Assembly (NCBI GenBank): GCA_015075175.1
Contig: JABTUV010000001.1
Location: 434,001-498,000, forward strand
Direction: 5' to 3'
Length of the DNA: 64,000 nt
Source of the DNA: a bacterium
GTDB taxonomy: Bacteria > Hinthialibacterota > Hinthialibacteria > H5-UNCL2
Position numbers and translations under genes: made by a program. Shown piece by piece: positions 1 through 60,915 of this stretch; positions within the stretch are counted from its first letter, which is position 1; every line of letters begins with the position of its first letter. The notes under the pieces were generated by a model. It had not been told where the DNA came from. It did not search any database and saw only the letters and a program-made list of their open reading frames with translations.

Positions 1-448
1 TCAGCATCGGTTGGTTTATCAAGTGCTCGACGAACTGTCATCGTCAAGGTGCTTCGCATGGGGCTGATGCGAGTAGGATCCCCAAGCCGGTCGCACATTG
101 CTCCCGCTCCTTGGGGGGTGGGCTGGGGATCGGGGGCGTGTCGAAGGATGATCCGGCGGAAACGATGCGCGCACAGGAGGCAATTCGTGGAACCGGGAAC
201 AGTCAGGAAAATTGGGGTCAGCGCCCAATTTTGCGGTAATGACCGCTTTGTGACTAATCTTGCGGCAAAATAAGGCGCTGACCCCAATTTCCCCAGTGGT
301 GCACGAGAACTACAGGCGGGGATTGGTGCGGCGTTTTCCAGTGCGGTCTTCTACGGGTCTTCTACGAGTACGAATAGGGAAGCGTAACCATTTACATTAC
401 ACGGTGTTTACGCCGCGCAGGATCCTCCCAATGGAGTTAGCGTCTTCG
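1..448. other. Gene-free left edge with one repeat copy
   Basis: No reading frame here resembles a protein I recognise. The stretch holds one complete copy of the roughly 90-bp inverted repeat (206-294) and otherwise unremarkable GC-rich DNA downstream of the stop codon of the ABC ATPase gene. Confidence 0.6.
206..294. repeat. Family A palindromic element (GGGGTCAGCGCC), copy 1
   Basis: Inverted repeat of about 90 bp. The arms read GGAAAATTGGGGTCAGCGCC and, inverted, GGCGCTGACCCCAATTTCC. Each arm carries an inner AATTTTGC/GCAAAAT half. Further copies lie at 2402-2494, 7104-7193 and 54548-54636. The design (two hairpin arms around a short centre) is that of a REP/BIME or small MITE. Confidence 0.9.
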
Positions 449-1168
449 TTAGACTGGAGAACCAGGCCGGCTCTTCCGGTGGGCTTCCGCGGCGAGATGC
501 GCGCCGTTGCTGGAGATTCGCCCCTCGGCCAACCGGAGCGACTTGTGGGCGTAAGCGGAGGCGCGCGGGTCGTGGGTCACCATCAGGATGGTCCGGCCCT
601 CCCGGTGCAACGACTGAAGGAACTCCAAGATCATGGTGGAGGTCTCCGGGTCGAGATTGCCCGTCGGCTCATCGGCCAGGATGATCTCCGGATCGTTGGC
701 CAGCATCCGCGCCAGCGCCACGCGCTGCTGCTGCCCGCCGCTGAGTTCGGACGGCTTGTGGTCCAGCCGGTCCGCCAAGCCCACGCGATCCAGGAGTTCC
801 CCGGCGCGCGCGCGCTGCTTCTCAGCAGGCATCCCCGCCAGCAAAAGCGGGACCTGCACGTTCTCCAGCGCCGTCAGGTACGGAACCAGGTTGTAACTCT
901 GAAAGAGGAAGCCGAGCCTCTTCCTTCGCAGCTCGGCGCGCTCGCTGAGCGGGAGGTCGTATACCGAGACACCTCCCAAGTGCACCTTGCCCCGACTGGG
1001 GGCGAGCATGCCCCCCAGCACGAGGAGAAACGTGCTCTTGCCGCTGCCGCTCGGCCCCATGATGGAAACGAACTCGCCCTTTTCAATCTCCAGGCTCACA
1101 TTGTCCAAGGCGTTGACCATGCGGCCGCGATGCTTGTAACTCTTGCTGACAGACTCTAATCGGAGCAC
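449..1168 (-). CDS. ABC transporter ATP-binding protein (MacB/LolD type)
   Basis: Cytoplasmic ATPase that would energise the adjacent MacB/FtsX-type permease. The 239-residue protein has all ABC motifs: Walker A GPSGSGKST (38-46), Q-loop FLFQS near 88-91, signature LSGGQ (142-146), Walker B IILADEPT (162-169) and the H-loop histidine near 199. Length and the LADEPTGNLD motif are typical of the MacB/LolD/FtsE group. It is the last gene of the minus-strand operon that begins with arsR. The permease stop codon lies 3 bases upstream of its ATG, so the two are cotranscribed. The substrate cannot be read from the sequence. The arsenic context and Cys-rich neighbours suggest metal- or thiol-related export, but that is inference. 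Confidence 0.92.
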   Translation of the reverse strand: MLRLESVSKSYKHRGRMVNALDNVSLEIEKGEFVSIMGPSGSGKSTFLLVLGGMLAPSRGKVHLGGVSVYDLPLSERAELRRKRLGFLFQSYNLVPYLTALENVQVPLLLAGMPAEKQRARAGELLDRVGLADRLDHKPSELSGGQQQRVALARMLANDPEIILADEPTGNLDPETSTMILEFLQSLHREGRTILMVTHDPRASAYAHKSLRLAEGRISSNGAHLAAEAHRKSRPGSPV

Positions 1169-1171
1169 CGA

Positions 1172-2387
1172 TCACACCTCCTGCAGGGCAATACTGGGAT
1201 CCAGCCGGGCGGCGCGCCGGGCGGGAAAGAAACTGGCGGCCAGCGCAATGGCGACGGCTACAACGAGCGCCCAGAATGCCAGTATAGGCATCGGCAGCAC
1301 GGGTACCCCGGCGATGCGCGGCCCCAACCACAACGCCGCGGTGGATCCCAAAAGGAAGCCCGCCACCCCGCCCGCGACTCCGAGCAGCAACGCCTTGAGC
1401 AGGAAAACCTGAAGCACATGCTTCGGACCCGCCCCGAGCGCCATCAGAGTGCCAATCTCACGCCGCCGCTCGTACACGTTGGCGTACATGTAATTGGCAA
1501 TGCTCGTGCCCCCGACAAGCACCATGATGACAAGGAAAAGCAGCGACAGCCGCGCCATCATGTGGTTGGTCTTGATCTGGGTGGCCACGATCTGCGAGAT
1601 GGTGACCACCTTGGCCTCGGGCAACAGCTGGTTGATCTTCTGCACCAGGCCCTTGGAGATCTGCTCGCAGCAGCCGACGATTTCGATGGCGTTGATGACG
1701 GCGCCGATGCCGGCGAGGGCCTGCACGTGTGCAGATGCGCGAACGCGCGCGCGTCGTCAACCGTTCCGTCATGGGCAGAATCGCCTTCACCTGGAACGCC
1801 TTGCCGAGGACGGTGAACGACTGGCCCTCGGTGATGCCGAGCTCGCCTGCCATGTCGTGGCCCACAAGCAGCTCGGATTCGCCGAGGTCCTCGACGATGC
1901 GCCGCTGCGCCGGTTCTCCGGCGCGGGCGCTACGCCTGCCAGCGGCAGATCCACGACCGTCCCTGGCCCCGGGCGGGCAAAGATGCCCGCCCCTGCCAGA
2001 AGCCATCTTCAGCTTTGGCCATTCTTCGGGAGGATGCCGGTCAAGATGAAGCCTTCCAGCCCGGCTCCAGGGGACCGACGAAGCTGGGCGAGAGAGGTTG
2101 TCCAGGCCCGACAGGTCGGAGGTGGACAGGGTGGTCACATATTCCTCCGGGATCTCCTCCTCCTGCATGTCGGCGCTGTAATAGTCCTGCATGGATGCCG
2201 ACTTGGGGAGAATCAGGATGTTGGTCCCCAGCGCGTCCAATTCCCGCGCGACCGCCATTTCGGAATAGTGCGTGATGTTCCTGATCGAAACAATCACGCT
2301 GATGCCCAGGAGAATCGCCAGAAAGCTCGTGGCGAGCTGGCTCTTCCGTTCGAAAATCTCCCGCCACACCAGGGTGCGAATACGCAT
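1172..2387 (-). pseudogene. MacB/FtsX-type ABC permease, broken by several frameshifts
   Basis: Membrane partner of the ATPase at 449-1168. The ATG at 2387 follows a GGAG site and starts MRIRTLVWREIFERKSQL, a typical MacB N-terminus with one TM helix. Coding then moves through three frames: near 2095 after LSGLDNLS, near 2065, near 2045 before EWPKLKMASG, and near 1740. It ends in frame with the normal C-terminal FtsX domain (three TM helices, YERRREIGTLMALGA motif, stop at 1172). A GC-rich palindrome (1967-1995) sits in the middle of the coding region. Either a pseudogene or a stretch of poor consensus; intact it would be about 400 residues. Confidence 0.85.
1967..1995. repeat. Palindrome GGGCGGGCAAAGATGCCCGCCC inside permease gene
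   Basis: Short perfect hairpin (arms GGGCGGGCA / TGCCCGCCC) in the ABC permease coding region, where its translation (GRGGHLCPPG) has no place in the family. It looks like another inserted palindromic element. Confidence 0.65.
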
Positions 2388-2401
2388 GTCCTTCTCCTTC
2401 A

Positions 2402-2494
2402 GGAAAATTGGGGTCAGCGCCCAATTTTGCGGGGTAGCTTGGCTACTTTTGACTAATCTTGCGGCAAAATTAGGCGCTGACCCCAATTTTCCCC
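2402..2494. repeat. Family A palindromic element, copy 2
   Basis: About 93 bp, nearly identical to the 206-294 and 7104-7193 copies. It fills the whole gap between the stop codon of the thioredoxin-like gene (TAG at 2494-2496) and the ribosome-binding site of the ABC permease. Confidence 0.93.
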
Positions 2495-3291
2495 TACTGC
2501 GGTCCGCAGCCGCTCGGTCCACAGCCGCTGGGCCCGCAGCCGCTCGAAGACAGCGCTTTGATCAGGGTGTTGACCAGCACGTCCTTGGTGGTCGCGCCGG
2601 TGAAGACGCCCAGCGCCGCGTTGGGCGGCGCCAGCAGCACCGTCGTGGCGACCTTGGTATCCGAGCCGATGTTGAGTTGAGCCAGGAACTTTCGCTCCGC
2701 CTGGCTGGCGGGGTCGGCCAGGACGATCTGGGTCGCCTGGGCGAAACGCGCGTCGGCCGCAAACTCATGCACGGCCTTCATCGCGGCCTCGTTCTGCTGG
2801 GTGCTCCCATTCTGGAGGCACAAGAGGACCAGCCTGCGCTCCTGCAGCGCCAGGAGACATACTTCTGCAACGCAGGATTCCGGCGATGGCGCCCTCCGCA
2901 GGCGCGTCGCCTGCTGCGCCAGGAACCCGCCGGTGACTGCACCGTTGGGGGCGATCACGAACACCAGAGGCATGGGGGCGCGATCCAGGCCGTACTTTTG
3001 CACGAACGCCTTGTTATCCGCCGCTTTGCGATCCACGCCCACCCACTGCGCCTGGGTACTCAGGTCCTGTACGGTCGTCTTGACCAGTTCCTGCAGCTTG
3101 ACGGTCGTCTCGTCCTGCTGCTCATACACCACGCAATACAGGTGGCGCTGGTTCTGCGCCGCGCTCTGCAGGGCGGCCGAGAGACCGACGGGCGCGGTAG
3201 CGCTCTGCGGCGCCGTGGCCGTGTCCGACGCCCAAGCGACGCCGACCATGCATAAGACCCACGTCCTCACGATGGCCATCGATGCTTTCAT
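2494..3291 (-). CDS. Exported thioredoxin-like protein with (SGCGP)n tail
   Basis: 265-residue protein with a hydrophobic N-terminal segment (about 5-22, probable signal peptide), then two thioredoxin-fold-like stretches (for example PMPLVFVIAPNGAVTGG near 106-122). No CxxC active site is visible in these. The end is the unusual tail SSGCGPSGCGPSGCGPQ (249-265), three Cys-Gly-Pro units. ATG chosen because AAGGAGAACAGG lies directly upstream. It lies between ACR3 and the ABC permease in the ars operon. The Cys-rich tail could bind As(III) or another soft metal (inference). The stretch near 127-150 reads oddly and may hide a compensated frameshift. Exact family not recognised. Confidence 0.75.
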   Translation of the reverse strand: MKASMAIVRTWVLCMVGVAWASDTATAPQSATAPVGLSAALQSAAQNQRHLYCVVYEQQDETTVKLQELVKTTVQDLSTQAQWVGVDRKAADNKAFVQKYGLDRAPMPLVFVIAPNGAVTGGFLAQQATRLRRAPSPESCVAEVCLLALQERRLVLLCLQNGSTQQNEAAMKAVHEFAADARFAQATQIVLADPASQAERKFLAQLNIGSDTKVATTVLLAPPNAALGVFTGATTKDVLVNTLIKALSSSGCGPSGCGPSGCGPQ

Positions 3292-4576: not shown

Positions 4577-4631
4577 GCGGCAGCAAGCTGCCGCAGTCCA
4601 TATTCATTTCGACCGAAGGGAGAAATCTTCT
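4577..4631. repeat. Family I and family B elements at the end of the ArsD-like gene
   Basis: The palindrome GCGGCAGCAAGCTGCCGC (4577-4600) is followed at once by one half of the GTCATTTCGACCGAAGGGAG element (4604-4631). The second element encodes the last residues (DFSLRSK) and the TGA stop of the upstream minus-strand gene. Confidence 0.8.
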
Positions 4632-4975: not shown

Positions 4976-4986
4976 GCGATCACCCT

Positions 4987-7077: not shown

Positions 7078-7193
7078 CCCTCACCCCGACCCTCTCCCCC
7101 GGGGGAAAATTGGGGTCAGCGCCCAATTTTGCGGGTAGCTTGGCCACTTGTGAATAATCCCGCGGCAAAATTAGGCGCTGACCCCAATTTTCC
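7078..7193. repeat. Family C element joined to family A element, copy 3
   Basis: A copy of the CCCTCACCCCGACCCTCTCC element (7078-7103) is followed immediately by a full 90-bp family A inverted repeat (7104-7193). Together they occupy the gap between arsC and the FmdB-like gene. Confidence 0.9.
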
Positions 7194-7213
7194 TCCCGGA
7201 CATGTCATCTCGC

Positions 7214-9641: not shown

Positions 9642-9663
9642 GCGCAGCACGCTGCGCGACTAC
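9642..9663. repeat. Family E palindrome at the fdhA stop codon
   Basis: GCGCAGCACGCTGCGC followed by GACTAC. On the minus strand it reads GTAGTCGCGCAGCGTGCTGCGC and contains the TAG stop of fdhA (9660-9662). Confidence 0.8.
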
Positions 9664-12512
9664 AGGCGTTCCACTCGTACCGCCGTGACTTTGTATTCCG
9701 GCGCTTTCACAAACCGGTCGCGGTAGGGACTGGTGAGGCGATTGACGAAGATCGACGGGTCATGGAAGGTTGAAAACAGCTCGCCTTCTTTCATGGCCTC
9801 GTCGATGCGCACCTGCGTTTCAATGGCGCCATAGCGGCTGGCGACGCGCACGCGCCCGCCGTCGGAGAGTCCCAGCCGCGCCGCGTCCGCGGGACAGATC
9901 GCCACGTGGTCGGCGAAATGAAGCTGGCCGCTCTCTGTGCGGCCCGTCATCGTGCCCGCGTTGAAGTGGTGCAATGTGCGGCCGGTCACCAGCAGGAACG
10001 GATAGTCGGCGTCCACCGTCTCCTTGGTGGGAATGTACTCGACGCGCCGCAGCCCCGCCTGTTTGCCCATGGGAAAGCTGTCGACGTGCAGGATGTCCGT
10101 GCCGAGATGATCCAGCGTCGGGCAGGGCCACTGCAAGCCCCCGGACTCCAGGCGCTCATAGGTGATGCCGTTGGCCTGCGGCCAGACGGTGCGGATTTCA
10201 TCCCAGATTTCTTCGGCGGATGAAAAGCTGAAGCTTTCACTCCGGCCCATCGCGCGCGCGACCGCACAAATAATGTCGGCGTCGGTGCGCGGTCCGCCGT
10301 CGGTGCGCGGTGCGCCGTCGGTGCGCGGTGCGCCGTCGGTGCGCGGTGCGCCGTCGGTGCGCGGTACGCCGTCGGTGCGTGGTGCGCCGTCGGTGCGCGG
10401 TACGCCGTCGGTGCGCGGTGCGCCGCCGGTGCGCGGTGCGCACCCTACGGGGCGGATGCGCTGCACCCGCCGCTCCGAGTTCATGAACGTGCCGTCCTAC
10501 TCAAACGGCGAGGCGGCGGGCAGGAACACGGTGCCGAACCGCCGGGCGGTCTCGTTCATGAACATGTCCTGCACGACCACCAGGTCGATCTTTTCCAGCG
10601 CGCGGCGCGTGCTCTCCTCGTTGGCCAGCGTGAAGTAGATGTCGTAACCGATCAACCACAGCGCCGAAAGCTTGCCCGCCGCCGCCGCGTCCATCATCTC
10701 CATCAGATTGAGACCGGACTCGGTCGGAACCGGCGCGCCCCAGACCGATTCGAACAGCGCCCGGCCCTCCTTCAGGGCGACGCCGCCGGTCAGGATGCCC
10801 GGATCGCAGCCCATGTGCGCGCAGCCCTGCACGTTGTTCTGCCCGCGCAAGGGATTGACGCCCGATCCCGGTTTGCCGATGTTGCCCGTGAGCAGCGCCA
10901 GGTTAACCAGGCACATCACGCCTTCCGTGCCTTGCAGATGCTCGGTGACCCCCAGGCCATGAAAGCACATCGAAGGCTTGCCGTTGGCATAGATGCGCGC
11001 CGCCTGCCGGATCAGCGACGCATCCACGCCCGTAATCCCCGCCACCTTCGCCGGCGCATAATCTGCGACGAACTTCCTGAAGGCGTCGAAGTCCTTGGTG
11101 CGCTCGGCGATGAACGCCTCGTCTGCCAAACCCTCGTCGATGATGGCGCAGGCGAGGGCGTTGAGCAGCGGCACGTTGGTCCCCGGCCGCAGCTGCAGAT
11201 GCACGTCGGCGTAGCGCGCCAATTCGATCTCGCGCGGATCGATCACGACCAGCTTCGCCCCCCCCTCATCCCCCCCCTCTCCCCCAGGGAGAGGGGGCCG
11301 CCCCAGTACCGCCTGCTTGATGCGCGCGCCCACGATGGGATGATTCTCCGTCGGATTGGCGCCGCAGATGAGAAAGGCGTGAGCGCGCTCGATGTCGTCA
11401 AACGAGTTGGTCGCCGCGCCCGTCCCCAGCGTCATCTTCATCCCCGCCGCCGTAGGGGTGTGGCACACGCGCGCGCACCCGTCCACGTTGTTGGTCCCCA
11501 GCACCACGCGCGTGAACTTCTGCGCCAGGTAGTTCTCCTCGTTGGTCGCGCGCGAGGAGGCCACCACGCCGATGCGCTCCGGCCCCTCTGTCTTCATGAT
11601 CTCGGTGAACCGCCGCGCGATGAAACCGACCGCCTCCTCCCAGCTGACCTTGCGCCAATCTCCTTCCGCGCGCAGCAGCGGAACCGTGATTCGATCTTCG
11701 CTCTCGATCCAGGCGTGTGCGTAACGCCCCTTTACGCACAAGTGGCCCTTGCTGACGGGCGCATCCAGCACCGGGCGGATGGTGGTAATCCGGCCGTCGC
11801 GCGTGCCCACGTTCATCTCGCAGCCCGTGCCGCAGTAGGGGCAGGTCGTGCGAGTCCAATGCTCGGGTTCTCCGCGCAAAAGCAGCGTCTGATCTTCCAG
11901 CGCGCCCGTCGGGCACGTATCCACGCACGCCCCGCAGGAGACGCAGGAACTCTCCAGCAGCGTGGTCCCCTGGTCGGGCAGAATGCGAATGGCGTCGCCG
12001 CGATACCACGGCTTCCAGACGAACTGGCCCTGCAGCTCCTCGCAGATGCGCACGCAACGTTGGCAGTAGATGCACTGGCGCATGTCCACGTGAATATAGG
12101 GGTGGGTGGCGTCGCAAAAAACGTCCGGCGGCAGCAAGCTGCCGCACTCCACACTGATCGGGGCGACCCCGTAGGCCGCCAGGTACTTGTGGAAAGCCTT
12201 GTCCGGATGGCGGGCGATGGCTTCGGGAGGATAACCATCGGCAAGAAGGGACAGCAGCGTGCGGCGATACTCCTCCAGCTCGGGGGTATGCGTCGTGACC
12301 TTCATGCCCTCGCTGCACGGGGTAGTGCAGGCTGCGACGGGACGGGACGAGCCTTCGACCTCGACCACGCAGAGTCGGCAGCCGCCGAAGGGCGCGATGC
12401 GCGGATCATGGCACAGCGTGGGGATGTCAATCCCCGCCGCGCGCGCCGCCTCCAGGATGCTCTGGCCCGGCCGGTAGCTCGCCGACTGGCCGTTGAGAGT
12501 TACGACAGGCAC
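9660..12512 (-). CDS. fdhA: NAD-dependent formate dehydrogenase catalytic subunit, amber-interrupted, repeat-invaded
   Basis: Oxidises formate to CO2 with a molybdo- or tungstopterin. Order of domains: 2Fe-2S ferredoxin domain (Cys34, 45, 48, 62), two 4Fe-4S sites (CIYCQRCVRIC, CVSCGACVDTC), the catalytic-domain cluster CPYCGTGC, then the molybdopterin domain with the Mo ligand as Cys (ARVCHTPTAAG, not Sec). The GTG start follows GGAG. Three foreign segments interrupt the family sequence: ECGSLLPP (12129-12152), GRPPLPGGEGG (11259-11299) and a run of APRTDG hexapeptides (10281-10442). An in-frame TAG at 10497-10499 separates ASPFE from DGTFMNSERRVQR, where the family normally reads straight through. 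The first 671 codons and the rest share one frame, so one base change breaks the gene. Confidence 0.9.
10281..10448. repeat. Nine-unit 18-bp tandem array inside fdhA (family D)
   Basis: Nine consecutive 18-bp units of consensus GTCGGTGCGCGGTGCGCC (10281-10442), varying at one to three positions, end in the family D sequence CACCCTAC. On the minus strand each unit adds the hexapeptide APRTDG in frame. Single family D copies at 19519-19540, 52622-52653 and 60702-60722 show this is an expanded palindromic element. Confidence 0.95.
11259..11299. repeat. Family C element inside fdhA
   Basis: CCCCTCATC...CCTCTCCCCCAGGGAGAGGGGG, an in-frame insertion encoding PLPGGEGGDEGG between IKQAVLG and AKLVVIDPRE, a junction that is contiguous in formate dehydrogenases. 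Confidence 0.88.
12129..12152. repeat. Family I palindrome inside fdhA
   Basis: GCGGCAGCAAGCTGCCGC followed by ACTCCAC, the same element as at 4577-4600 and 14036-14058. It is translated as ECGSLLPP between the 2Fe-2S and first 4Fe-4S domains. Confidence 0.8.
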
Positions 12513-14119
12513 GGGGAAAACTCCTTCTGAAAATAGCGATTCACGCTATTGGCCAGTTCCGAGAGGCCCACGCCGAGCCCGCACAAACTGGTTTGGGCCA
12601 GCGCTTCGACGATGGACTTCCACTGGCCGCGATCGACCGGATGCGTCCCGCCGTCGGTACTCGACGGGCTTCCCCTCACCCCCACCCTCTCCCCCGGGGA
12701 GAGGGAGCAATCGGCGAGCGCGCGCGCCAGCGCGTCCGCCAGGCGCCGGCTTCCCACTCGGCAGGGCGTGCACTTGCCGCACGATTCGTCCGCGGCGAAC
12801 TCGAAGATGTGGTGGACCAGTTGGGGGATGCTCGTGTGCTCGTCGATGGCGACGATGCCGCCATGTCCCAGGTTTCCGCCGACGGCCCGCAGCGCCTCGA
12901 AGTCCAGCGGCGTTGCGAGGAGCGACGCGGGCACGATCCCGCCCATCGGCCCCGCCGGCATCACGCCCACCAGCCGCCCGTCCGCCATGCCCCCGCCGAT
13001 TTCCTCGACGATGGTAGCCAGGGTGGTCCCGAATTCGACCTCGTAAATGCCCGGCTTTCTGAACAGCGAAGGCAGCGAGAGCGCCTTGGTCCCGCGGCTC
13101 TTGTTGTAACCCAGCGCGCAGTACGCCTCGCCGCCATGTTCGAGGATCCACGGCAGATTGCAGAGCGTCTCGATGTTGAGGAGCAGCGTGGGCTTGCCGA
13201 AGAGTCCCTTGTCGGTGGGAAAGGGAGGTCGCGGCATGACTTCGGGCCGCCTGCCCTCAATCGAGCGCAGAAGCGCCGTCTCCTCGCCGCACACGTAACT
13301 GCCGTGGCCGGAGACGAGCTGGATGTCGAAGCTGAAATCGCGCGACAGGACTCTCTCGCCCAGAAACCCCCGCGATCGAGCCTGCGACAGCGCTTCCAGG
13401 AGAATGGCGCGCGCCTCGGGATACTCGCATCGCAGGTAGATGTAACCCTGAGCCGCTCCCACGGCGTATCCCGCGATGCTCATCGCCTCGATCAGCCTGA
13501 AGGGATCGTCCTCCATGAGAAAGCGATCGGTGAACGAGCCGGGATCGCCCTCGTCGCCGTTGGCCACGACGTACTTGACGGGAGACGGGTTGGCGGCGAC
13601 GGCGCGCATCTTTACGCCCGAGGGGAAGCCCGCGCCGCCGCGCCCGCGCAACTGCGAATCGAGCACCTCCCCTACGACCTCTTGCCGCGATCGCAACAGC
13701 GCCCGCTCCAGCCCTCTATAACCGCCGCGCGCCAGGTAGATATCCAGTTGTCGCGCGCCGCCGTCGACCAGATTGGCGAGTAGTATCGCCTGCGGCGAGC
13801 GCACTTCCACGTGGGGCCGCGCGGTCTCGCCCGCCGTCGCCGGCGCAACGTAGCAGCGTCCCATGCAATACACGCGCGGCTTGTCCCGCTCCGCCTTCGC
13901 CCATCGCGCGGGATGGCGATGCCGCGCTGCAAAGCACGCCGTCCCCCGGCAGCCATGCTCCGGCGCCAACTGGACTGCGGCCGCCTGCTCCCTCTCCCTT
14001 GGGGAGAGGGCTGGGGTGAGGGGGACCTTGTGGCCTGCGGCAGCTTGCTGCCGCCGCGAAGTGGGCGCGACCAGATGATAACACGACTCGATGCTCTCGG
14101 GATGCTGGGGAGCCTTCAC
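12500..14119 (-). CDS. NuoF-like NADH-binding subunit of formate dehydrogenase, repeat-invaded
   Basis: Flavin/NAD subunit that passes electrons between FdhA and NAD. A thioredoxin-like 2Fe-2S segment (HGCRGTACF, RVYCMGRCYVAPA) precedes the NuoF core with the NADH/FMN motifs GRGGAGFPSGVKM and NGDEGDPGSFTDR. The 4Fe-4S site is ESCGKCTPCR plus TSLCGLG. The GTG start at 14119 follows AGGAG. The gene overlaps fdhA by 13 bases (ending KEFSPCLS), showing coupled translation. Three palindromic elements are inside: QQAAAGHK (14036-14058) and LTPALSPREREQ (13988-14024) near the N-terminus, and SLSPGERVGVRG (12672-12708) after the 4Fe-4S motif. All keep the frame. Confidence 0.9.
   Translation of the reverse strand: MKAPQHPESIESCYHLVAPTSRRQQAAAGHKVPLTPALSPREREQAAAVQLAPEHGCRGTACFAARHRHPARWAKAERDKPRVYCMGRCYVAPATAGETARPHVEVRSPQAILLANLVDGGARQLDIYLARGGYRGLERALLRSRQEVVGEVLDSQLRGRGGAGFPSGVKMRAVAANPSPVKYVVANGDEGDPGSFTDRFLMEDDPFRLIEAMSIAGYAVGAAQGYIYLRCEYPEARAILLEALSQARSRGFLGERVLSRDFSFDIQLVSGHGSYVCGEETALLRSIEGRRPEVMPRPPFPTDKGLFGKPTLLLNIETLCNLPWILEHGGEAYCALGYNKSRGTKALSLPSLFRKPGIYEVEFGTTLATIVEEIGGGMADGRLVGVMPAGPMGGIVPASLLATPLDFEALRAVGGNLGHGGIVAIDEHTSIPQLVHHIFEFAADESCGKCTPCRVGSRRLADALARALADCSLSPGERVGVRGSPSSTDGGTHPVDRGQWKSIVEALAQTSLCGLGVGLSELANSVNRYFQKEFSPCLS
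12672..12708. repeat. Family C element inside nuoF-like gene (C-terminal)
   Basis: CCCTCACCCCCACCCTCTCC with CCGGGGAGAGGG, encoding LSPGERVGVRG in frame within an otherwise conserved NuoF C-terminal domain. Confidence 0.9.
13988..14058. repeat. Family C and family I elements inside nuoF-like gene (N-terminal)
   Basis: CTCCCTCTCCCTTGGGGAGAGG with GGTGAGGGG (13988-14024) and GCGGCAGCTTGCTGCCGC (14036-14058), a dozen bases apart. Both are translated in frame ahead of the 2Fe-2S motif. Confidence 0.85.
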
Positions 14120-14439
14120 GTTCTTGCTCCTGGGTTCAGGCGGAGTGGACCACGCCAGTAGATTGCCGAAGCTATTCCATCATTGATTCTTTTTCAAGAA
14201 TTAATTCTACAACGGTAAGTTTGCAGCCGTCTCGAGGTTGCAGTTTTCCCGTCTCCACGTGTTTTCAAGCGACGTGAGCTGTCATTTCGACCGTAGGGAG
14301 AAACCTCCCCCAGCACCGCGGCGTCCAGACAAGGGGGCGAAGATTTCTCCCTGCGGTCGAAATGACAGTGGGGCGGTCGAAATGACAGCGGCGACGACGA
14401 GAGCGGCACGCGACTTAATCCGCCGCGTGTTTTCTTGTT
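14120..14439. other. Intergenic region with family B repeat cluster
   Basis: The region between the nuoF-like gene and the exported-protein gene carries a two-armed family B element plus one extra half (14279-14389) and no recognisable gene. Confidence 0.7.
14279..14389. repeat. Family B palindromic element, copy with extra half
   Basis: GTCATTTCGACCGTAGGGAG and its inverted partner CTCCCTGCGGTCGAAATGAC, separated by about 50 bp, followed by a further GGTCGAAATGACAG half-site. Confidence 0.9.
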
Positions 14440-19008: not shown

Positions 19009-19518
19009 AGCTTCCAGCCTGGTCGGCGCCGCTGGCGATCTTTCTTTTCTCCTCCGGGCTGCTGCTTTTCACGTTGCCCGATTACGGCGTCACCTGGGAC
19101 GAGGCCTATCCCAACCTGCCGGCGGCGCGCCGCCACGCCCAATGGTTCGCCGGATTCCTTACCCATCCCGCGCTCTTTTCGGAACAAACCATCCGGGACC
19201 ACTGGCAGAGCACCTCCGATCATCCGACGCTGGTGCGCACACTGGCGGCCTTCGGAATTCTCTTTCTGGGCAAGTTTTTTTCCGAGCCGACGGCCGCGCG
19301 GATACCGCTCGCGCTGGCCTTCTCCGCATTCCTTGTGGTCGTGTACGAGTGGCTGCGGCGGCAATGCGGGAGCGTCTGGCCGGCGGCCTGGGCGGCGCTG
19401 GCCCTGCTCTTTTTCCCCCGCATCTTCGCGCACGCCCACTTTGCCGCTCTCGATCTGCCCATGGCCATGATGTGGGTGGGAATGCTGTGGGTGTTTCTCT
19501 GGGCGCGTGCCGGCCGTG

Positions 19519-19582
19519 GCTGCGCACCGCGCACCGCCGCGCTGAGGCGCCCCGCACCCAACCCTCTCCCCAGGGAGAGGGC
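19519..19582. repeat. Family D plus family C elements at the frameshift of the glycosyltransferase
   Basis: TGCGCACCGCGCACC (19520-19534) and ACCCAACCCTCTCCCCAGGG AGAGGGC (19555-19582) stand about 20 bp apart. The coding frame differs on the two sides. Confidence 0.85.
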
Positions 19583-19981
19583 TTTTGGAACCACGCCGCC
19601 GCCGCCGGGCTTTTCTATGGGCTTGTGCTCGCAACCAAGCTGCACGCGCTGTTCCTTCCCCTGGTTTTGCTTATTCACAACCTCCGTTATCGCCGCTTCG
19701 ACTGGCGCATCTATCTCATGATGGCGCTCCTGGGACCGCCCGTGTATGTGCTCGTGCAACCGATTCTCTGGCATCATCCCATCGCGACCACGCTGGACCG
19801 GCTGGCGGGACTGGGCGGCATGGTCGAGTCCGGTCCCATCCCGCTCTACTACCTGGGCGAGGTGCATTACGGCGACACGCCCTGGCACTATCCGCTGGTC
19901 ATGACGCTGGTGACCTTCCCGCTTCCGATCCTGGCGCTCCTGGCTCTGGCGGCGGGAGCGGGCCTGCGGCGATGGTGGGGC

Positions 19982-20067
19982 CGCGCAGCGCGCTACGCAA
20001 CTACGACGGCGGCTGGCGGCGATGCCGAGGCGCGCCCCTCGATAAGCCCTCCGGCCTACTCGGGGGT
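19982..20067. repeat. Family E and family F elements inside the glycosyltransferase
   Basis: CGCGCAGCGCGCTACGCAAC (19982-20001) and CCCCTCGATAAGCCC with CGGCCTACTCGGGG (20036-20067) both lie in the loop before TM sequence resumes. Both preserve the frame. Confidence 0.8.
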
Positions 20068-45875: not shown

Positions 45876-47266
45876 ATGGCCAGCGCGCGCGTTCAGGTTC
45901 GCACCGAGATCGAGGCCATCCGGCAGGGGTTGCGTTGTTCCAACCTGGAGGCCGTCTTCGCTACCATCCACCTGGTCCTCTCCCAGGGCATCTTTCTGAC
46001 CAACTACATCCTCGATCTGGGCGGCAGCAACCTGGTGTGCGGCATCGTAGAGGCGCTGCCCTACACGGTGCAATTCACGTATTTCGCCTCGCCGCTCCTG
46101 GTGCGACGGATGCGGAAGCGCAAGCCGGTCGTGGTCTTTTTCGCCGTCGCGCACCGAGCCTCGTGGATTTCCCTGGTAGCGCTCTTGTTCGTCGATTGGC
46201 CCTCCACCGTCAAGCAGACTCTGATGGTCCTCAATCTTCTCCTGGCCAACGCTTGCGCGGTGATCGCGGGCAACGCCTGGTTTTCCTGGATGACCGACCT
46301 CGTTCCGCCCTCCATCCGGGGATCGTACTACGGCCGGCGCAACGTCTATCTGGGCATGACCTCGATGATCACCCTCTTCGTCGGCTCGCAGATTCTGACC
46401 GCCTTCCGTGAAGTCGGCTGGGGAAACTGGGGTTATACGCTGTGCTTCTCGATCGCGATTCTCTCGGCTTTTTATGCGGGCTATTTGCTCAACCGGCAGT
46501 ACGAACCGCCTATCTCCGAGGTTCCCGTGATGACGCCGCGCATGGCCCTGGGCGCCCTCCGGGAGACGCCGCTTCTGCGCGACTTCATCGGGTTTTTCAC
46601 CATCTGGCAGTTCGGCATGGAGTGTCGGCGGCGTTTTTCGGCGTGCAGATGGTGCGGGTGCTGGGCATGTCGCCGGCCATGATGGGCTACCAGTCGCTCC
46701 TGGGCAGTTTTATCGCGCTGTTCGGCAGCCGGATGTGGGGACGGGCCATGGACCGCGTCGGCGACCGCGCGGTGCTCCTGGCGACCGGCGCCATCATCTG
46801 CACCCACGTTTGGGTCTGGATGCTGGCCTGGCCCGGCTTTCTTTGGCCCATCTGGATCGCTACCGTGCTGTCGGGATTCTCCTGGTCGGGCTTCAACCTG
46901 GCCATCTTCGCCTGGCCCCAGCGCATGTGCTCGCGCGAAAACCGCCAGTACACCTATGGACTTCTGGGCTTCATCTCCGGTCCGGCCTTCGTGCTGGGAT
47001 CGCTGTTCGGAGGGTTCCTGACCACCTGGCTGCCGCTCAGCCTTTTTCACATCGGGAGCTTCGAGGTGACCCACTTTCATCTCGTGTTTGCGCTCTCGGC
47101 GCTGGTGCGAACGCTGGCGCTGCTTCTCATCGCCCGCTGGTCGGCGCGCTACGAACTGCGTCCCCGCACCATCCGGCGGTCGTTGGTGGAAGGCGTGCAG
47201 CGCATGGACGTCGGCTACCAGTGGGAGGAACTCAAGCGCGCGCTGGGGCGCATGGTGCGGCGCTAG
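45876..47266 (+). CDS. MFS transporter, split by a one-base deletion
   Basis: About 463-residue twelve-helix protein. The first part (from ATG 45876) ends after FFTIWQFGM. Near 46620 one G is missing, and the second frame continues with VSAAFFGVQMVRVLGMSPAMMG, as expected for an uninterrupted helix. Conserved motifs: SYYGRRNVYLGMTSMI and GRAMDRVGDRAVL (the loop after helix 8). Substrate unknown. The TAG stop is followed at once by tandem family B half-elements (47268-47346). Confidence 0.82.
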
Positions 47267-47267
47267 C

Positions 47268-47346
47268 CGTCATTTCGACCTAGCTGTCATTTCGACTTAG
47301 CTGTCATTTCGACTTAGCTGTCATTTCGACCGCAGGGAGAAATCCG
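47268..47346. repeat. Tandem family B half-elements, 17-bp period
   Basis: Four successive copies of TAGCTGTCATTTCGACT with period 17 bp, the last continuing into CGCAGGGAGAAATC. The first TAG is the stop of the MFS gene. Confidence 0.93.
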
Positions 47347-47390
47347 ACCCAGTGCCGTTTCTCAAAAAGTAGTTGCAGGAAGGCAAAAAC

Positions 47391-47431
47391 CGAGTCCTCG
47401 AGTAGCCGGTACTCCGGCGTATCGAGAGGAC
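47391..47431. repeat. Family G 41-bp palindrome, copy 2
   Basis: Exact copy of 27251-27291, 20 kb away. Confidence 0.95.
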
Positions 47432-47548
47432 GACCGGGTCGCTGCAACTTTGCTTGAAACGACCCTGAGGCCCCGTCGGCGCACTTGCTTCGCAAAGCCC
47501 CGGGACTGTGCTAGGCTGGAGGGCATCCTCGCAATTGGAGGCTGAACC

Positions 47549-52621: not shown

Positions 52622-52653
52622 CGCCGTCGGTGCGCGGTGCGCACTCTACTCGC
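52622..52653. repeat. Family D element supplying the ABC gene stop
   Basis: GCCGTCGGTGCGCGGTGCGC followed by ACTCTAC. On the minus strand it begins TAGAGTGCGCACCGCGCACC and the TAG is the stop of the ABC exporter at 52646. Confidence 0.88.
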
Positions 52654-54529
52654 CCCCGCCCGACCGGGTGGAGACGGCCTCCTGGTCCTTGTATTGCAGC
52701 TGATAGAGTCGATAGTAGAGTCCGCCCTGGGCCAGCAGCTCCTGGTGCGTTCCCTGCTCGCGCAATTGCCCATGGTGCATGACGAGAATCTTGTCCGCGC
52801 GCTCGATGGTGGAGAGGCGGTGGGCGATGACGATGGAGGTGCGGCCCGTCATCAGCTTGGCCAGGGCGTCCTGAATCAAGCGCTCGGTTTCGGTGTCCAC
52901 GCTGCTGGTCGCCTCGTCCAGCACCAGGATGTCGGGCTGGGTCACCAGCGCGCGGGCGAAGCTGAGGAGTTGCTTTTCGCCCACGGAGAAACCGGCGCCG
53001 CGCTCCCAGGCCTTGGCGAAGTAGCCGGGCGCGATGCGCGCGGCCGCGGCCCGCTCCGGATCGTCGGCCTTGCGCCGCTCAATGAAACGATGCGCGTTCA
53101 CCCGCCGCGCCGCCGCCTCCACTTCGGTTTCGCTGATGCGCTCATCGCCCAGCGTGATGTTGTCATAAACCGTTCCGGAAAAAAGAAACAGGTCCTGTTG
53201 CACCAGCGCGATGCGCCGCCGCAGCGACTCGACGTCCAGCTCGCGCACGTCCACGCCGTCCAGTAGTATCCGTCCCTTCTGCACGTCATAGAAGCGCAGG
53301 AGCAGCGCGATGATGGTGGTCTTACCCGCGCCGGTCGCGCCTACCAGCGCCACCGTCTGCCCCGGCTCGACGGTGAAACTCACGTCCCGAAGCACCCACT
53401 CCGTTTCTCCCTCTCCCTCGGGGAGAGGGTTGGGGTGAGGGGCCTTGTACGCAAACCAGACGTTCTCAAACTCGATCCTCCCTGCCGAGGAAATCCGGAC
53501 GCGCGGCGCCTCCGAGTCCTTAACCTCCGGCTCGGTGTCGAGACGGTGAAACACCCGCTCGCTGCTGGCCATCGCCGCCTGCATGGTGTTGTAACGTTGC
53601 GACAGCATGCGGATGGGCCGGAAAAAGCGTTCGACGAGGGCCACGAAGGCCCCCAGATCTCCCAGCGTCACGTCCCCCGTCCGGCCCGCGATCAGCCAGC
53701 CGCCGTAACATACCGCGATCGCCGTCCCCAAATGCCCGAGAAAATCCACCAGCGGGAAATACGTCGCGTAGCACAGGATGGTCTTCACGTGCGTGCGATA
53801 AAGATCATAGTTCAGCTCGTCATACTTCTTCAGGTTGCGCGCCTGCCGGCAGAAGGCCTGCACGGTCTTGATGCCCGAGATGTTCTCCTGCAGGTAGGCG
53901 GAGATGCGGGCGATCTTGATGCGCGCGTCGCGATACAGTTCGCGCACGAAACGGCGAAAGACGAACGAAACCACGACGAGCAGGGGAACAATCGCCAGCG
54001 TGGCCAGCGCCAGCCGCGGCGAGAGGGCGAACATGCACACCACCGCTCCCACCACGATCACCAGGTCCCGGATACTCGTCACCACTACGGTGGCGAACAT
54101 GTCGGTCAGAATGTCCACGTCGCTGACCACGCGCGTGATCAGCCGCCCCACCGGGTTGCGGTCGAAAAAGCTCATCGAGAGCGACTGCACGTGGTCGAAC
54201 ACCTGCCGCCGCAGGACGTACATGATCTCCTGGCCGATGGCGAACATCTTGACGAAAAGAAAGTAGTTGAGCACGAAGAGCAGCGCCAGCGTGGCCAGGT
54301 AGAGGCAGACCACGCGCACCAGTGCGGGAAGGTCGCCGGGCAGAATGCCGTCGTCGATGATGAGCTTGTTGTACACCGGCAGGAGAATTTCGCCGCCGGC
54401 CGCCAAAAGGCTGAGCACCACGCAGCCGGAGATCACGCGGCGATGCGGAGCGGTGTAGGTCCACAACCGGCGCATCAGCCGCGCGTCGTAGGCTTTGCCC
54501 AGAATTTCGTCCTCGTGGAATTCGCTCAC
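52646..54529 (-). CDS. ABC exporter, fused permease-ATPase (second subunit), repeat-containing
   Basis: 627-residue half transporter with six TM helices (about 25-310) and a C-terminal ATPase. Walker A LVGATGAGKTTI, a Q-loop in LVQQDLFLFS, C-loop FSVGEKQLLSFARAL (not LSGGQ, as in one half of heterodimeric exporters), and LVLDEATSSVD. A family C element (53406-53443) adds PHPNPLPEGEGE in frame between the WFAYKA and WVLRDVSF segments, before Walker A. The GTG at 54529 is the probable start. With the upstream ABC gene it likely makes a heterodimer. Stop is supplied by a family D element. Confidence 0.9.
   Translation of the reverse strand: MSEFHEDEILGKAYDARLMRRLWTYTAPHRRVISGCVVLSLLAAGGEILLPVYNKLIIDDGILPGDLPALVRVVCLYLATLALLFVLNYFLFVKMFAIGQEIMYVLRRQVFDHVQSLSMSFFDRNPVGRLITRVVSDVDILTDMFATVVVTSIRDLVIVVGAVVCMFALSPRLALATLAIVPLLVVVSFVFRRFVRELYRDARIKIARISAYLQENISGIKTVQAFCRQARNLKKYDELNYDLYRTHVKTILCYATYFPLVDFLGHLGTAIAVCYGGWLIAGRTGDVTLGDLGAFVALVERFFRPIRMLSQRYNTMQAAMASSERVFHRLDTEPEVKDSEAPRVRISSAGRIEFENVWFAYKAPHPNPLPEGEGETEWVLRDVSFTVEPGQTVALVGATGAGKTTIIALLLRFYDVQKGRILLDGVDVRELDVESLRRRIALVQQDLFLFSGTVYDNITLGDERISETEVEAAARRVNAHRFIERRKADDPERAAAARIAPGYFAKAWERGAGFSVGEKQLLSFARALVTQPDILVLDEATSSVDTETERLIQDALAKLMTGRTSIVIAHRLSTIERADKILVMHHGQLREQGTHQELLAQGGLYYRLYQLQYKDQEAVSTRSGGGE
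53406..53443. repeat. Family C element inside the ABC exporter gene
   Basis: TCCCTCTCCCTCGGGGAGAG and GTTGGGGTGAGGGG, encoding APHPNPLPEGEGE on the minus strand in frame. Confidence 0.9.
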
Positions 54530-54656
54530 GACTACTCCGCCTCGAACGGAAAAACAGGGTCAGCGCCCATTTTTGCCGGGTGTTCTCTGATCTCCGATAA
54601 TTCGACCTGCAAAAACAGGCGCTGACCCCGTTTTTCGTCCACGATTACTCCGCCTC
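54527..54656. mobile_element. Family A element (copy 4) with flanking direct repeat
   Basis: An 89-bp family A inverted repeat (54548-54636, the most diverged copy; arms GGAAAAACAGGGTCAGCGCC and GGCGCTGACCCCGTTTTTC) lies between two direct repeats: CACGACTACTCCGCCTC (54527-54543) and CACGATTACTCCGCCTC (54640-54656). They match at 16 of 17 positions. The pair has the look of a target-site duplication, so the element probably moved in here, duplicating the junction between the two ABC genes. Confidence 0.8.
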
Positions 54657-56441: not shown

Positions 56442-56730
56442 CTGAGTTGTGCGGTCTCAGCCTATCACGGGATGGCAGTCGGAGCAAGTGGGCCGCAAGC
56501 GCAGCCGAAACTGCCACTTCGACCCTGGCCGTCAATTCGCCTCCAGCTGTCATTTCGCCTCCAGCTGTCATTTCGACCGCAGGGGGTTTTAAGCCATGCG
56601 CATAAGTCAAAATGGGATAGCAGGCCGTGAGCAAGACAGAAGATTTCTCCTGCGGTCGAAATGACAGTGGTCTTGCGGTCGAAATGACAGTGACGCTGCG
56701 GTCGAAATGACAGGGCGGTTGCCGTGGTCG
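56442..56730. other. Intergenic region filled by family B repeats
   Basis: Several family B half-sites (56529-56713): GCTGTCATTTCGACC twice or more on one side and CTGCGGTCGAAATGACAG three times on the other. No gene. Confidence 0.75.
56529..56713. repeat. Family B repeat cluster
   Basis: Two or three plus-oriented half-sites (GCTGTCATTTCGCCTCCA, GCTGTCATTTCGACCGCAGG) and three inverted half-sites GCGGTCGAAATGACAGT. It resembles a hairpin whose arms have been amplified. Confidence 0.9.
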
Positions 56731-57939
56731 TCAGGGGGCGATCACGGCGCGGACGGGAATCTCCAGCGAGGGCAGGCCGCGCGCGGGCGGGGCGACCCGC
56801 AAACGCGCGCGCAGCTCGCGCGGCCCGCCCGACGGAAACAGCGTCACCCGAAAGCGCGCCGTGTCACTGCCGGCCGACACCTGTTGGATGGACAGGCGTG
56901 GCTCGCTCGTGGTGATGACAATCCCTTCTCCTTCATCCAGCCGATGGGGCGGCTCGCAATGGAGCGCGAACTCGCGCGCGGCCGGCGAGCCGTCGGCGAT
57001 CACCCCGAAGTTGAGCCGCTCCGGCTCGGCCGAGAACGCTCCCGCCACATAGCCGGAGAGTGACAGCGGGACGACCGGCCGGTCCGGACAGTCGGTCGAG
57101 AACTCCAATACGCGCTGAATCATCTCCCTGGCCGCGGCCGTGGCCGGCACGAGGTAATAAACGGTTCCGGCGACGATGTGGGGCATGGCCGCATCGCGCG
57201 GCGCCCAGTCGACGCGCACGCCGGCCGGCCTGCCGGAAACCGACGCTGCCAGCGGGCGCTTGTCCGAGCGAATGAGGGTGAAGGGTTGAGCATAGCTCTG
57301 TCCGCGCCGCGCGGCGCGCAAGTGAAACACTTCCGGTTCGATCATGACCGGCAAGTAGACCGAGGCGGCCGCCCGCAGTCGCACCTGCCGCGCCAGCGGA
57401 TCATCCGTGCGAATCAGAATCTCGCCCTCTTCCGTGCCCGGATGCACGCGCGCGCGATAAGCCAGGGTGAGCGTCGCCGTCGCGCCCGGCGCCAGGGTGG
57501 CATCGGAGATCTCCACAGAAAGACACCGGCACAGCGAACGCAGCGACAGAATGGTCAGCGAGGCGTCGCCCCGGTTCCCGAGCACGAGCTCGCGCGTCGC
57601 CGAACCGCCGGCCTCGACCGCGCCCAGCGACACGCTCGGTTCCGACAAAAAAAACTTCGGAGCGGCAGCGAGGGGGCCGCTGCTCCAAAGCAAAAGCAGG
57701 CTACAGACGAGTAATATCCTATGCGAGCGCGAAAAGCCCGTGCTGTTTGCAAGAGAGTCGTTGCGAGCAGAGAAAACCCGAGTCCTCGAGGCGTCCCCCG
57801 AGTAGGCCAAAGGCCGTATCGAGGGGTAGCGGCCCGCCGAGTCACAACATGCGAGTCTCGCAGGCGGCTCCGGGCCGCGTATCGGAGAAGACGCCATTTC
57901 GCCGCAACGCCACTCGCAGCACGAGGCTACGGCGCCCAT
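56731..57939 (-). CDS. Exported DUF1573-like protein with repeat-derived N-terminus
   Basis: DUF1573 proteins are exported proteins built from Ig-like (ASPM-SPD-2-Hydin type) domains. Typical phrases are present: FFLSEPSVSLGAVEAGGSAT, LVLGNRGDASLTILSLRSLC and CLSVEISDATLAPGATATLT. A hydrophobic stretch (RILLVCSLLLLWSSGPLAAA) looks like its signal peptide, but there is no start codon close before it. The upstream codons are made of family F and G palindrome sequence (57778-57834), and the first ATG in frame is at 57939. The native start was apparently replaced by a repeat; the true start is unclear. Family B repeats follow the stop. Confidence 0.65.
   Translation of the reverse strand: MGAVASCCEWRCGEMASSPIRGPEPPARLACCDSAGRYPSIRPLAYSGDASRTRVFSARNDSLANSTGFSRSHRILLVCSLLLLWSSGPLAAAPKFFLSEPSVSLGAVEAGGSATRELVLGNRGDASLTILSLRSLCRCLSVEISDATLAPGATATLTLAYRARVHPGTEEGEILIRTDDPLARQVRLRAAASVYLPVMIEPEVFHLRAARRGQSYAQPFTLIRSDKRPLAASVSGRPAGVRVDWAPRDAAMPHIVAGTVYYLVPATAAAREMIQRVLEFSTDCPDRPVVPLSLSGYVAGAFSAEPERLNFGVIADGSPAAREFALHCEPPHRLDEGEGIVITTSEPRLSIQQVSAGSDTARFRVTLFPSGGPRELRARLRVAPPARGLPSLEIPVRAVIAP
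57778..57834. repeat. Family F/G mosaic palindrome
   Basis: GAGTCCTCGAG (family G end) directly joined to CCCCCGAGTAGGCC...GGCCGTATCGAGGGG (family F). Both belong to one superfamily with ends CTCGATACG and CTACTCGRGG. Confidence 0.82.
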
Positions 57940-59090: not shown

Positions 59091-59195
59091 ATGGCCTCGA
59101 CTCCTTTTCTTTCCTCGCAACGGACTCTGGAGCGGCTTCGGATCGGGGCAGACCCGACCAGCACCGCCTTCTCACGTCGCGAAGAAGTTGGTAAT

Positions 59196-59362
59196 TGCGG
59201 AGTCGGCGTCAGGTCTTCTGGCTTTCGGATCGTTCGCCGCGCCCACCTTCCCAGCCCTTGGCCAGTGGTCGATTGGGCGCGTTGTCCCCGATTACAGCGG
59301 CGCGTCCGCACCGGAGTCTCACCGGTTTCCCATCCGCCGTGGCGGATGATTGACGCCGATTC
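59196..59362 (-). promoter_or_regulatory. Cobalamin (B12) riboswitch
   Basis: On the minus strand the consensus elements appear in order: GGGAAACCGGTGAGACTCCG, GCGGACGCGCCGCTGTAATC, GGGGAC, CCACTGG, GGGAAGGTGGGCGCGGCGA and the B12 box AAGCCAGAAGACCTGAC. It lies about 105 bp upstream of the start of the degraded exported protein at 59090, with nothing else between. This arrangement would switch off that gene when adenosylcobalamin is abundant. Confidence 0.93.
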
Positions 59363-59456
59363 CTGGAAATTGTGGAGGGACCCTAGGCGCGAGACGGCGG
59401 ACCTGTCAAGTGAAATGTTGGGACGAGCGCCGTGGCACGGGCATCCTGCCCCTGCT

Positions 59457-60644
59457 TCACCCCACGCTGCTCCGCGGGAGCGGAGCGGCCATGCGCGCCT
59501 CCGTCTCCGCCAGCGCGGCGGAAAGCACGGCGCGCTCCTCGTCGCTGGACAGCTGGGACAGCAGCGCGCGCGCCTCCGCCAGGTTGCGCTCCGCTTCGGC
59601 GGGGTCGCGCCGGATCAGATAACCGCAATCGACGCAGGCCGCCGGCAGTTTCCCCTCCCAGATGCGCCGCCGGAAGTCGGTCGCCTTCTCCCCGAAGTGA
59701 ATCGCTTCCAGGCTCTGCTGCCGCAGGTTGCCGAAGGTCTCTTCGGTAAAGCAGCAGGGATGCACGTCGCCGTTGTCGTACACGAGAAACTGCGTCCAGG
59801 CCTCGCGGCAGGCGCGGCCCGGCTTCTCCGGCGCGGACATTTTCGTTTCCGGGGCAAACTCCGGTGTGTACGGATCGCGCGGCACGTAATAGAGTCCGAT
59901 CCCCAGGTCCGCCGCCAGCTTGCGCGCCCGCGACACCATCCAGTCCATCCGCCACGTGCCCAAGACGGACATGGCGGCGTCTTCTTTTCGATACAGCACC
60001 ACGTTTTGCAAATGCAGGTCCACCGCCCCCAGTTCCGCCGCCAGTCGCACCATGTTGGGGATGTGCCAGACGTTGTCGCGCGACACGGTCATGCACAGTC
60101 CGATTCTGGGGCGATCCACGCCCAGCTCGCGCTTCAGGTCGCGCAACGCGCGGATGTACTCCATGATGCGCTCGTACTTGGCGCCCGCGCGCATGAGTTC
60201 AAACGTCGCCGGGTCCGGGCTGTCCACCGAAACGCCGAGATAGTCCAGCCCGATCTCGACCAGCATCCGCCGGTACCTGTCGTTGAGCATGGTGGCGTTG
60301 GTGGTGGTGATGCACTCGGCGCCGGCGGCCTTGGCCATGCGCACCATGCGCTCGAAGTCCTTGTGCATGAAAGGCTCGCCCAGCCCCAGGAGCGTTACCC
60401 GCTGCGCGGCGTGGAAATGCGGCTCCATCTGCTCGTATAGGTCGGTGGGAAAATAATAGTCCCGGACGTTGTGGCCTCTCTGCCGTTCGCAGTAGATGCA
60501 CTTGATGTTGCAGTCGCCGGTGATGGTCACACCCAGGTAGCGGGGATAGGCGCGGACTTCGGGCGAAGCGAAAGTCTCGTCCAGGAGGCGCAGGGCCTGG
60601 TTGAGGGTGCGCGAGACCGGCACGGGCTGGACGGTGATCTGCAT
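59457..60644 (-). CDS. Radical SAM protein with SPASM-type C-terminus
   Basis: 395-residue radical SAM enzyme. The cluster motif CNIKCIYC (about 46-53) is the CxxxCxxC that binds the catalytic 4Fe-4S cluster and S-adenosylmethionine, followed by the GLGEPFMH substrate-side motif. A SPASM-type C-terminal domain carries extra cysteines: CREAW, VHPCCFTEETFGNL and CVDCGYL. Substrate is unknown; SPASM proteins often modify peptides or carry out epimerisations, but no precursor peptide is visible nearby. The ATG lies 70 bp from the next repeat block. Confidence 0.92.
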   Translation of the reverse strand: MQITVQPVPVSRTLNQALRLLDETFASPEVRAYPRYLGVTITGDCNIKCIYCERQRGHNVRDYYFPTDLYEQMEPHFHAAQRVTLLGLGEPFMHKDFERMVRMAKAAGAECITTTNATMLNDRYRRMLVEIGLDYLGVSVDSPDPATFELMRAGAKYERIMEYIRALRDLKRELGVDRPRIGLCMTVSRDNVWHIPNMVRLAAELGAVDLHLQNVVLYRKEDAAMSVLGTWRMDWMVSRARKLAADLGIGLYYVPRDPYTPEFAPETKMSAPEKPGRACREAWTQFLVYDNGDVHPCCFTEETFGNLRQQSLEAIHFGEKATDFRRRIWEGKLPAACVDCGYLIRRDPAEAERNLAEARALLSQLSSDEERAVLSAALAETEARMAAPLPRSSVG

Positions 60645-60915
60645 GGCGGCTTAGGTTAGCCGACCAGGGAGCGCCTGTCGAGTGCTTACGCTGAGTCAGG
60701 TAGGGTGCGCACGGCGCACCAACGCCCCACCTGCGGAAGCTGCGCGTGGAGTACAGGCTTCAACCTGCCTGCCGAGCAAACTGAAGTTTGTACTCCATCA
60801 AGCCATAACCCTCTGATACAATTGATCTTATTCGAGTCGCAAGGCTCACCGAAAAGTCCAAGCACTTGCTGACCCACGTCACCCGACCACCGAGGGCGCC
60901 GGGCGGGCGCGCGCG
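60645..60915. other. Intergenic region with family D and H elements
   Basis: TAGGGTGCGCACGGCGCACC (60702-60722) and a family H palindrome (60748-60796) occupy the gap. No gene recognised. Confidence 0.65.
60702..60796. repeat. Family D element and family H palindrome
   Basis: TAGGGTGCGCACGGCGCACC, then GGAGTACAGGCTTCAACCTG and CAAACTGAAGTTTGTACTCC. Confidence 0.88.

Follow-up and report, generated by a model that had tools for sequence, protein, structure and literature searches.

Palindromic repeat families in a Hinthialibacterota genome and a candidate GIY-YIG nuclease partner for repetitive extragenic palindromes of the CGTC type

Introduction

Two kinds of repetitive extragenic palindromic (REP) element are the closest described counterparts of the repeats considered here. 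GTAG REPs have their tag at the base of a short GC hairpin and go with RAYT (TnpA-REP) transposases (PMC6006769, PMC2817692); each RAYT pairs with its own repeat, several families can coexist in one genome (PMC6006769), and the tag often supplies a stop codon (PMC3733652). The CGTC superfamily, which includes the Neisseria element dRS3 and the rickettsial palindromic elements RPE-4 and RPE-6, was reported without a dedicated transposase, and loss of that enzyme was proposed (PMC3733652). A survey of the GIY-YIG nuclease superfamily asks whether further members are molecular parasites (PMC1564403). Here we analyze the palindromic repeats in a 64,000-nucleotide stretch (the window; positions 434001–498000 of contig C1, JABTUV010000001.1) of a bacterial genome of the phylum Hinthialibacterota, in which an earlier note had picked out many palindromic families, likened them to rickettsial palindromes and to REP/RAYT systems, and regarded the insertion of so many unrelated families into genes of one stretch as not described for such a genome.

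Most of the window families are REP-type mobile repeats of known kinds. We consider it probable that the palindromes represent several unrelated REP-type nonautonomous families, each spread by its own DNA nuclease and kept by selection mostly between genes, and that the partner of the CGTC-type family designated B is a GIY-YIG nuclease. This partner is the unexpected part; multifamily REP genomes and intragenic REPs are already known.

Results and discussion

Family B as a member of the CGTC superfamily

The genome (4.98 Mb in 49 contigs, 84% complete) was compared with a phylum set of 14 genomes that includes it and holds no second member of its family. Families were counted in 1.24 Mb of contig C1, where a gene model trained on the same stretch gives 865 genes and 78% coding sequence; second-order Markov sequence served as the chance control. 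Every palindromic seed of the earlier note recurs at multiple sites in the window, and nine hairpin families are dispersed and multicopy beyond it, far above the 0 to 4 matches of the control: A (33 matches at 19 sites), B (138 at 56), C (20 at 20), D (29 at 20), E (75 at 64), F (62 at 46), H (52 at 25), I (87 at 55), and K (33 at 30). The repeats are found genome-wide and are not confined to one contig; a search for B that allowed up to one mismatch returned 378 sites, with 0 for the reversed pattern.

The consensus of the 138 B matches is TGTC-ATTTCgaCCGAAGGgaGAAAT-C. Judged from this consensus and its arrangement, B falls within the CGTC REP superfamily, with TGTC as its tag. It shares with the described elements (PMC3733652) the TGTC tag, an accepted variant, a stem beginning with AT, a spread over several phyla, the absence of a flanking Y1 transposase, and a prevalence of head-to-head dimers; of 47 adjacent pairs on C1, 39 are +/− (tag-outward) with a spacer of 26 to 39 nt. 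It differs in that the stem, ATTTC/GAAAT plus CC/GG, is parted by a GA/GA internal mismatch, where the superfamily has an 8- to 9-bp hairpin starting with AT, and in that the consensus after the stem reads Ctt, with no clear sign of the CCA tail found in most, but not all, superfamily elements. The exact B 27-mer occurs in Bacteroidota, Proteobacteria, Riflebacteria, Omnitrophota, Nitrospirota, Chloroflexota, and others, including candidate phyla. The parallel with rickettsial palindromes is borne out by membership in the superfamily of RPE-4 and RPE-6 (PMC3733652) but not by position, as none of the 56 B sites lies in a gene. Literature searches by the B and C repeat sequences returned nothing relevant.

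GIY-YIG nuclease genes lie among CGTC elements

The initial lead came from genes situated between B sites, which included two GIY-YIG nucleases in different Gammaproteobacteria; the only other gene shared as a B neighbor encoded ABC transporter look-alikes. Of 47 small GIY-YIG genes, 8 have a strict B-type motif on both sides (as many as 19 copies surround a single gene), and none of 63 control loci does (0/19 of UvrC size and 0/44 with Y1 genes); both-side flanking was found for 1 of the 865 genes of C1. One of the eight belongs to the genome under study (C14:8956, locus L305), lies amid B elements, and runs into one of them at its 3′ end.

The same arrangement recurs in other phyla. When 398 Pseudomonadota genomes were searched with a profile of a second nuclease subtype, CGTC hairpins were found on both sides of 15 of 29 nuclease loci and on at least one side of 21; in successive 300-nt distance bins they number 57, 8, 3, 2, and 10, compared with 0, 1, 5, 2, and 1 for control tags, which show no peak. 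In 395 Bacteroidota genomes, both sides are occupied in 15 of 29 loci (bins of 65, 10, 3, 1, and 2) and, among lower-ranked matches, in 6 of 20. On plasmids, 5 of 10 GIY-YIG loci are flanked on both sides, those of Azospirillum lipoferum 4B (NC_016623.1), Rhizobium sp. CIAT894, Shinella sp. WSC3-e, Neorhizobium sp. EC2-8, and Planktothrix agardhii. In A. lipoferum 4B the flanked gene (L405, 1501–1794) lies between sufB and sufC and so breaks up the suf operon.

The type of element matches the nuclease subfamily. Mapped onto a tree of 97 nucleases, the GA-bulged and CC-stem element classes require 13 and 11 changes, versus 28 and 25 when labels are shuffled, and none of 500 shuffles was as low as observed; the contrast partly tracks phylum, but genome G019, with two nuclease subtypes each within its own element type, is an exception that goes the right way. 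Nuclease and elements also co-occur: CGTC-1-type copies average 29 in the 102 nuclease-positive Pseudomonadota genomes and 3.3 in the 296 negative ones (roughly a ninefold difference; p ~1e-12, with related genomes taken as independent rows), and at least two copies are present in 58/102 and 56/296, respectively.

The proposed partner nucleases exceed the PF01541 cut-off (54.8–59.9 bits), and the conserved Y, G, R, E, and N are invariant in A1. They resemble GIY-YIG homing endonucleases and UPF0213 proteins (PMC1564403; Protein Data Bank 1zg2) in the GIY-YIG domain and its conserved residues, and differ in being only ~100 residues long, in lacking extra DNA-binding domains, and in residing within REP elements rather than introns. 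No paper linking GIY-YIG proteins with REPs was found in the open literature, a search whose scope excluded preprints and most subscription papers, so that priority is uncertain.

Families A and H flank Y1 transposase genes

A search for transposases returned two Y1_Tnp genes in the genome that meet the PF01797 cut-off. One, on contig C46, has a complete A-type element on either side; the other, on C5, is set amid ~10 copies of H on both sides. Such loci resemble REPtrons and TIRtrons (PMC3733652) in that a Y1 (HUH) gene lies between copies of its own dispersed repeat, and differ in that the repeats carry neither GTAG nor CGTC tags and the proteins fall just below the RAYT cut-off. Relatives of the same class have Y1 genes with hairpin families of their own, and this shared pattern fits the published picture of one RAYT with one repeat (PMC6006769). 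Most RAYT-like Y1 genes of the phylum have a distinct flanking hairpin family (L132, L133, L139, L141, L144, L145, and L150). Family K was considered as a further Y1-linked repeat and set aside, as it adjoins one Y1 gene in a relative (L146), on one side only.

The two Y1 genes could be taken to favor movement of CGTC-type elements, B included, by Y1/RAYT or other ordinary transposases acting in trans, as was suggested for the superfamily (PMC3733652). However, one is flanked by A and the other by H, and among 44 Y1 loci in 18 B-carrying genomes, none has B-type elements on both sides and one has them on one side. We reject B as a RAYT-moved repeat and consider transposition in trans improbable.

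Families D, E, and F are GTAG-tagged

Families D, E, and F carry the tag of classical REPs. The consensus of E is GTAG-TTGCGCAGCGTGCTGCGC and that of D is GTAG-GGTGCGCACCGCGCACC, with GTAG exact at the hairpin foot in 57/75 and 26/29 matches, respectively; in F the assignment is by consensus, with GTAG embedded in a longer palindrome. On C1, the preceding gene takes its TAG stop codon from the tag at 16 of 57 tagged E copies (120 other offsets pooled give 7) and at 11 of 26 tagged D copies. These families are like the GTAG REPs that go with RAYT/TnpA-REP (PMC6006769, PMC2817692) in having a short GC hairpin with GTAG at its base, in location at gene 3′ ends, and in provision of TAG stops. The parallel with REP/RAYT systems drawn in the earlier note extends to A and H, by their Y1 genes, and to D, E, and F, by their tag. 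Family E numbers 202 copies in this genome and 0 in the 13 other genomes of the phylum. No partner enzyme was identified for C, I, or K.

A nuclease-driven origin weighed against a passenger gene

In the mechanism that we propose for B and its relatives, the GIY-YIG enzyme would recognize the tagged hairpin, or the cruciform of a dimer, and then nick or cleave; repair or copying of the cut site would spread the dimer to new sites. The dimer would stand to the nuclease-bearing unit as a miniature inverted-repeat transposable element stands to its transposon. For CGTC REPs across bacteria, dRS3 and the rickettsial palindromes included, we see about even chances that a dedicated single-domain GIY-YIG subfamily that recognizes the tagged hairpin spreads them, as a second REP system independent of RAYT/GTAG.

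The main rival makes the GIY-YIG gene a passenger, a free-standing endonuclease of the homing type that uses CGTC elements, made otherwise, as safe landing sites. REPs are known targets of insertion sequences (PMC1525189), the elements occur without the nuclease, and the nearest flanking elements are tag-outward on both sides in just 18 of 42 loci (tag-inward in 4 of 42), so that a strict transposon-like unit with outward tags is not universal. A passenger is harder to reconcile with the greater number of copies in nuclease-bearing genomes, with an element type that tracks nuclease subfamily, and with clusters as large as the 19 elements around one gene; we regard it as unlikely, if the most serious competitor.

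Several observations weigh against the origin by dedicated nucleases that we prefer, apart from the partial phylum signal, the nonindependent rows, and the low share of outward-tagged loci already given. Association, type matching, and co-occurrence are observed, and mobilization of CGTC elements by the nuclease is inferred from them; no movement was observed. CGTC elements are present without the nuclease in 68 of 296 nuclease-negative genomes, and no CGTC element lies near many of the subfamily's GIY-YIG genes. The gene of the genome under study, 62 to 72% identical to intact relatives, is spread over three frames by two frameshifts, and because of this B may be a relic population here. For the Y1-linked families, both proteins score 70.1 and 74.3 bits against the REP transposase (RAYT) model, under its curated cut-off of 80. 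Finally, the available 84% of the genome yielded no RAYT gene with D, E, or F at its flanks, and the only two Y1 genes there are those flanked by A and by H; this sets the three families apart from described GTAG REPs, although such a RAYT gene can be lost and some published REP genomes have none.

CGTC-type palindromes are widespread short bacterial repeats whose defining survey found no enzyme (PMC3733652). The GIY-YIG protein proposed here is a candidate for the long-missing one, and its covariation with the elements makes the question directly testable. Such a partner suggests how in-gene palindromes like the rickettsial ones arose, and it provides a likely role for a large group of small nucleases annotated just as "GIY-YIG nuclease family protein."

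Position of the repeats relative to genes

The elements of the window are as follows.
206–293, family A element of two inverted 25-nt hairpins (AAAATTGGGGTCAGCGCCCAATTTT); the hairpin folds, and the architecture matches the Y1-gene flanks in L023
2402–2495, family A element, intergenic, ending at the stop of gene 2494–3249
7104–7196, family A element, intergenic
54545–54640, family A element, occupying the gap between two ABC transporter genes
4601–4627, + strand, single family B element, adjoining an I copy at 4577–4594
14279–14368, family B (TGTC-tagged CGTC-type REP) +/− dimer, intergenic
21896–22101, two family B +/− dimers within a 118-nt direct repeat, intergenic
32283–32373, family B +/− dimer, intergenic
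37113–37273, one + and two − family B elements, intergenic, with partial copies upstream from 37069
47264–47344, + strand, family B element with 17-nt tandem partial copies, intergenic
56544–56731, family B partial copies, intergenic
11263–11282, family C, in frame in fdhA
12646–12715, family C, in frame in the fdhB-like gene 12500–14119
53422–53441, − strand, family C, in frame in the ABC transporter gene 52646–54529
14003–14054, families C (14003) and I (14037), where the fdhB-like gene has a doubtful extension at its N terminus
12128–12145, family I, at a variable fdhA loop and not a clear insert
10277–10448, − strand, family D (GTAGGGTGCGC-ACC-GCGCACC) plus 18-nt tandem array, in frame within the C-terminal region of fdhA
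52629–52649, − strand, family D, in the gap between two genes
60700–60720, + strand, family D, intergenic
9642–9663, − strand, family E (GTAG REP), whose GTAG (9660–9663) gives the stop to the fdhA frame (9660–10484)
19983–20004, − strand, degenerate family E, within predicted gene 19487–20779 (no Pfam match)
20776–20797, + strand, family E (GTAG REP), whose GTAG gives the TAG stop (20776–20779) to the gene ending at 20779
21058–21079, − strand, family E (GTAG REP), intergenic
27245–27302, + strand, family F (GTAG inside a longer palindrome)
47385–47442, + strand, family F
57790–57826, − strand, family F variant
40336–40383, family H pair, same family as the Y1-gene flanks in L024
60748–60796, family H pair
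24497–24515, − strand, family K, at the 3′ end of the esterase gene 24489–25391, encoding its last residues
29831–29849, + strand, family K, intergenic

In the window, family H has two sites rather than the three listed earlier, family D consists mostly of one 18-nt tandem array (10277–10444), and the single hairpins at 1967, 34892, and 51331 all lie in intergenic gaps of the gene model. Over the counted part of C1, A (0/19 sites) and B (0/56) have no copy well within a gene, and genic copies are strongly depleted in most other families: H (1/25), F (4/46), I (5/55), and E (7/64). The genic share rises to about a fifth to a third for C (6/20), D (4/20), and K (6/30).

These counts bear on the view, taken in the earlier note, of one unusual genome in which many Rickettsia-like palindromes have been inserted in frame into genes. 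The family C inserts in three window genes speak for it; the intergenic position of A and B and the depletion of most other families do not, and to call the phenomenon undescribed was too strong, as publications describe both intragenic REPs and genomes in which several REP families each have a transposase of their own (PMC3733652, PMC6006769). We give this view a very low probability.

Copies of A, D, E, and I are often found no more than 20 nt from a gene 3′ end, as would be expected if the hairpins were mainly terminators or RNA-stability elements under selection rather than mobile DNA. Yet the family consensus is near-exact across the whole element, loop included, amplification is family-specific, as in the phylum-wide contrast for E, and repeats flank nuclease genes; a terminator origin is, in our judgment, a slim prospect.

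In-frame inserts of family C

At least a dozen copies had been placed in recognizable genes; about six are clear, namely C at 11263, 12673, and 53422, I at 12128, the D array, and K in 24489–25391. For want of same-family genomes, inserts were assessed against class-level and Protein Data Bank homologues. By these alignments the three C copies are true in-frame inserts: 20 residues in the fdhB-like gene, absent in 17 of 17 class homologues; ~13 residues in fdhA, absent in 9wxb_B; and ~10 residues in the ABC transporter. The segments are not ordinary domain sequence shared with distant orthologues, and in-frame insertion, claimed more broadly before, holds for C, which lacks the CGTC tag, and fails for A and B. 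Family C can be tolerated in frame in protein loops. It encodes, for example, LSPGERVGVRG and PHPNPLPEGEG in unrelated proteins of the window and other C1 genes. The I copy in fdhA is unsupported as an insert, since the homologous loop is no shorter; nor are the C and I copies in the extended N terminus of the fdhB-like gene convincing.

The 18-nt array in fdhA, which encodes a PRTDGA-type hexapeptide repeat, appears from its sequence to have grown from a family D element. The fdhA frame (9660–12512, − strand) also contains an in-frame TAG (10497–10499) within the conserved motif E-[stop]-D-G-T-F; in this otherwise open formate dehydrogenase alpha frame, the TAG may reflect gene decay (a nonsense mutation) or an assembly error. 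Elsewhere in the window, a cobalamin riboswitch (RF00174, 104 bits) lies at 59191–59372 on the − strand.

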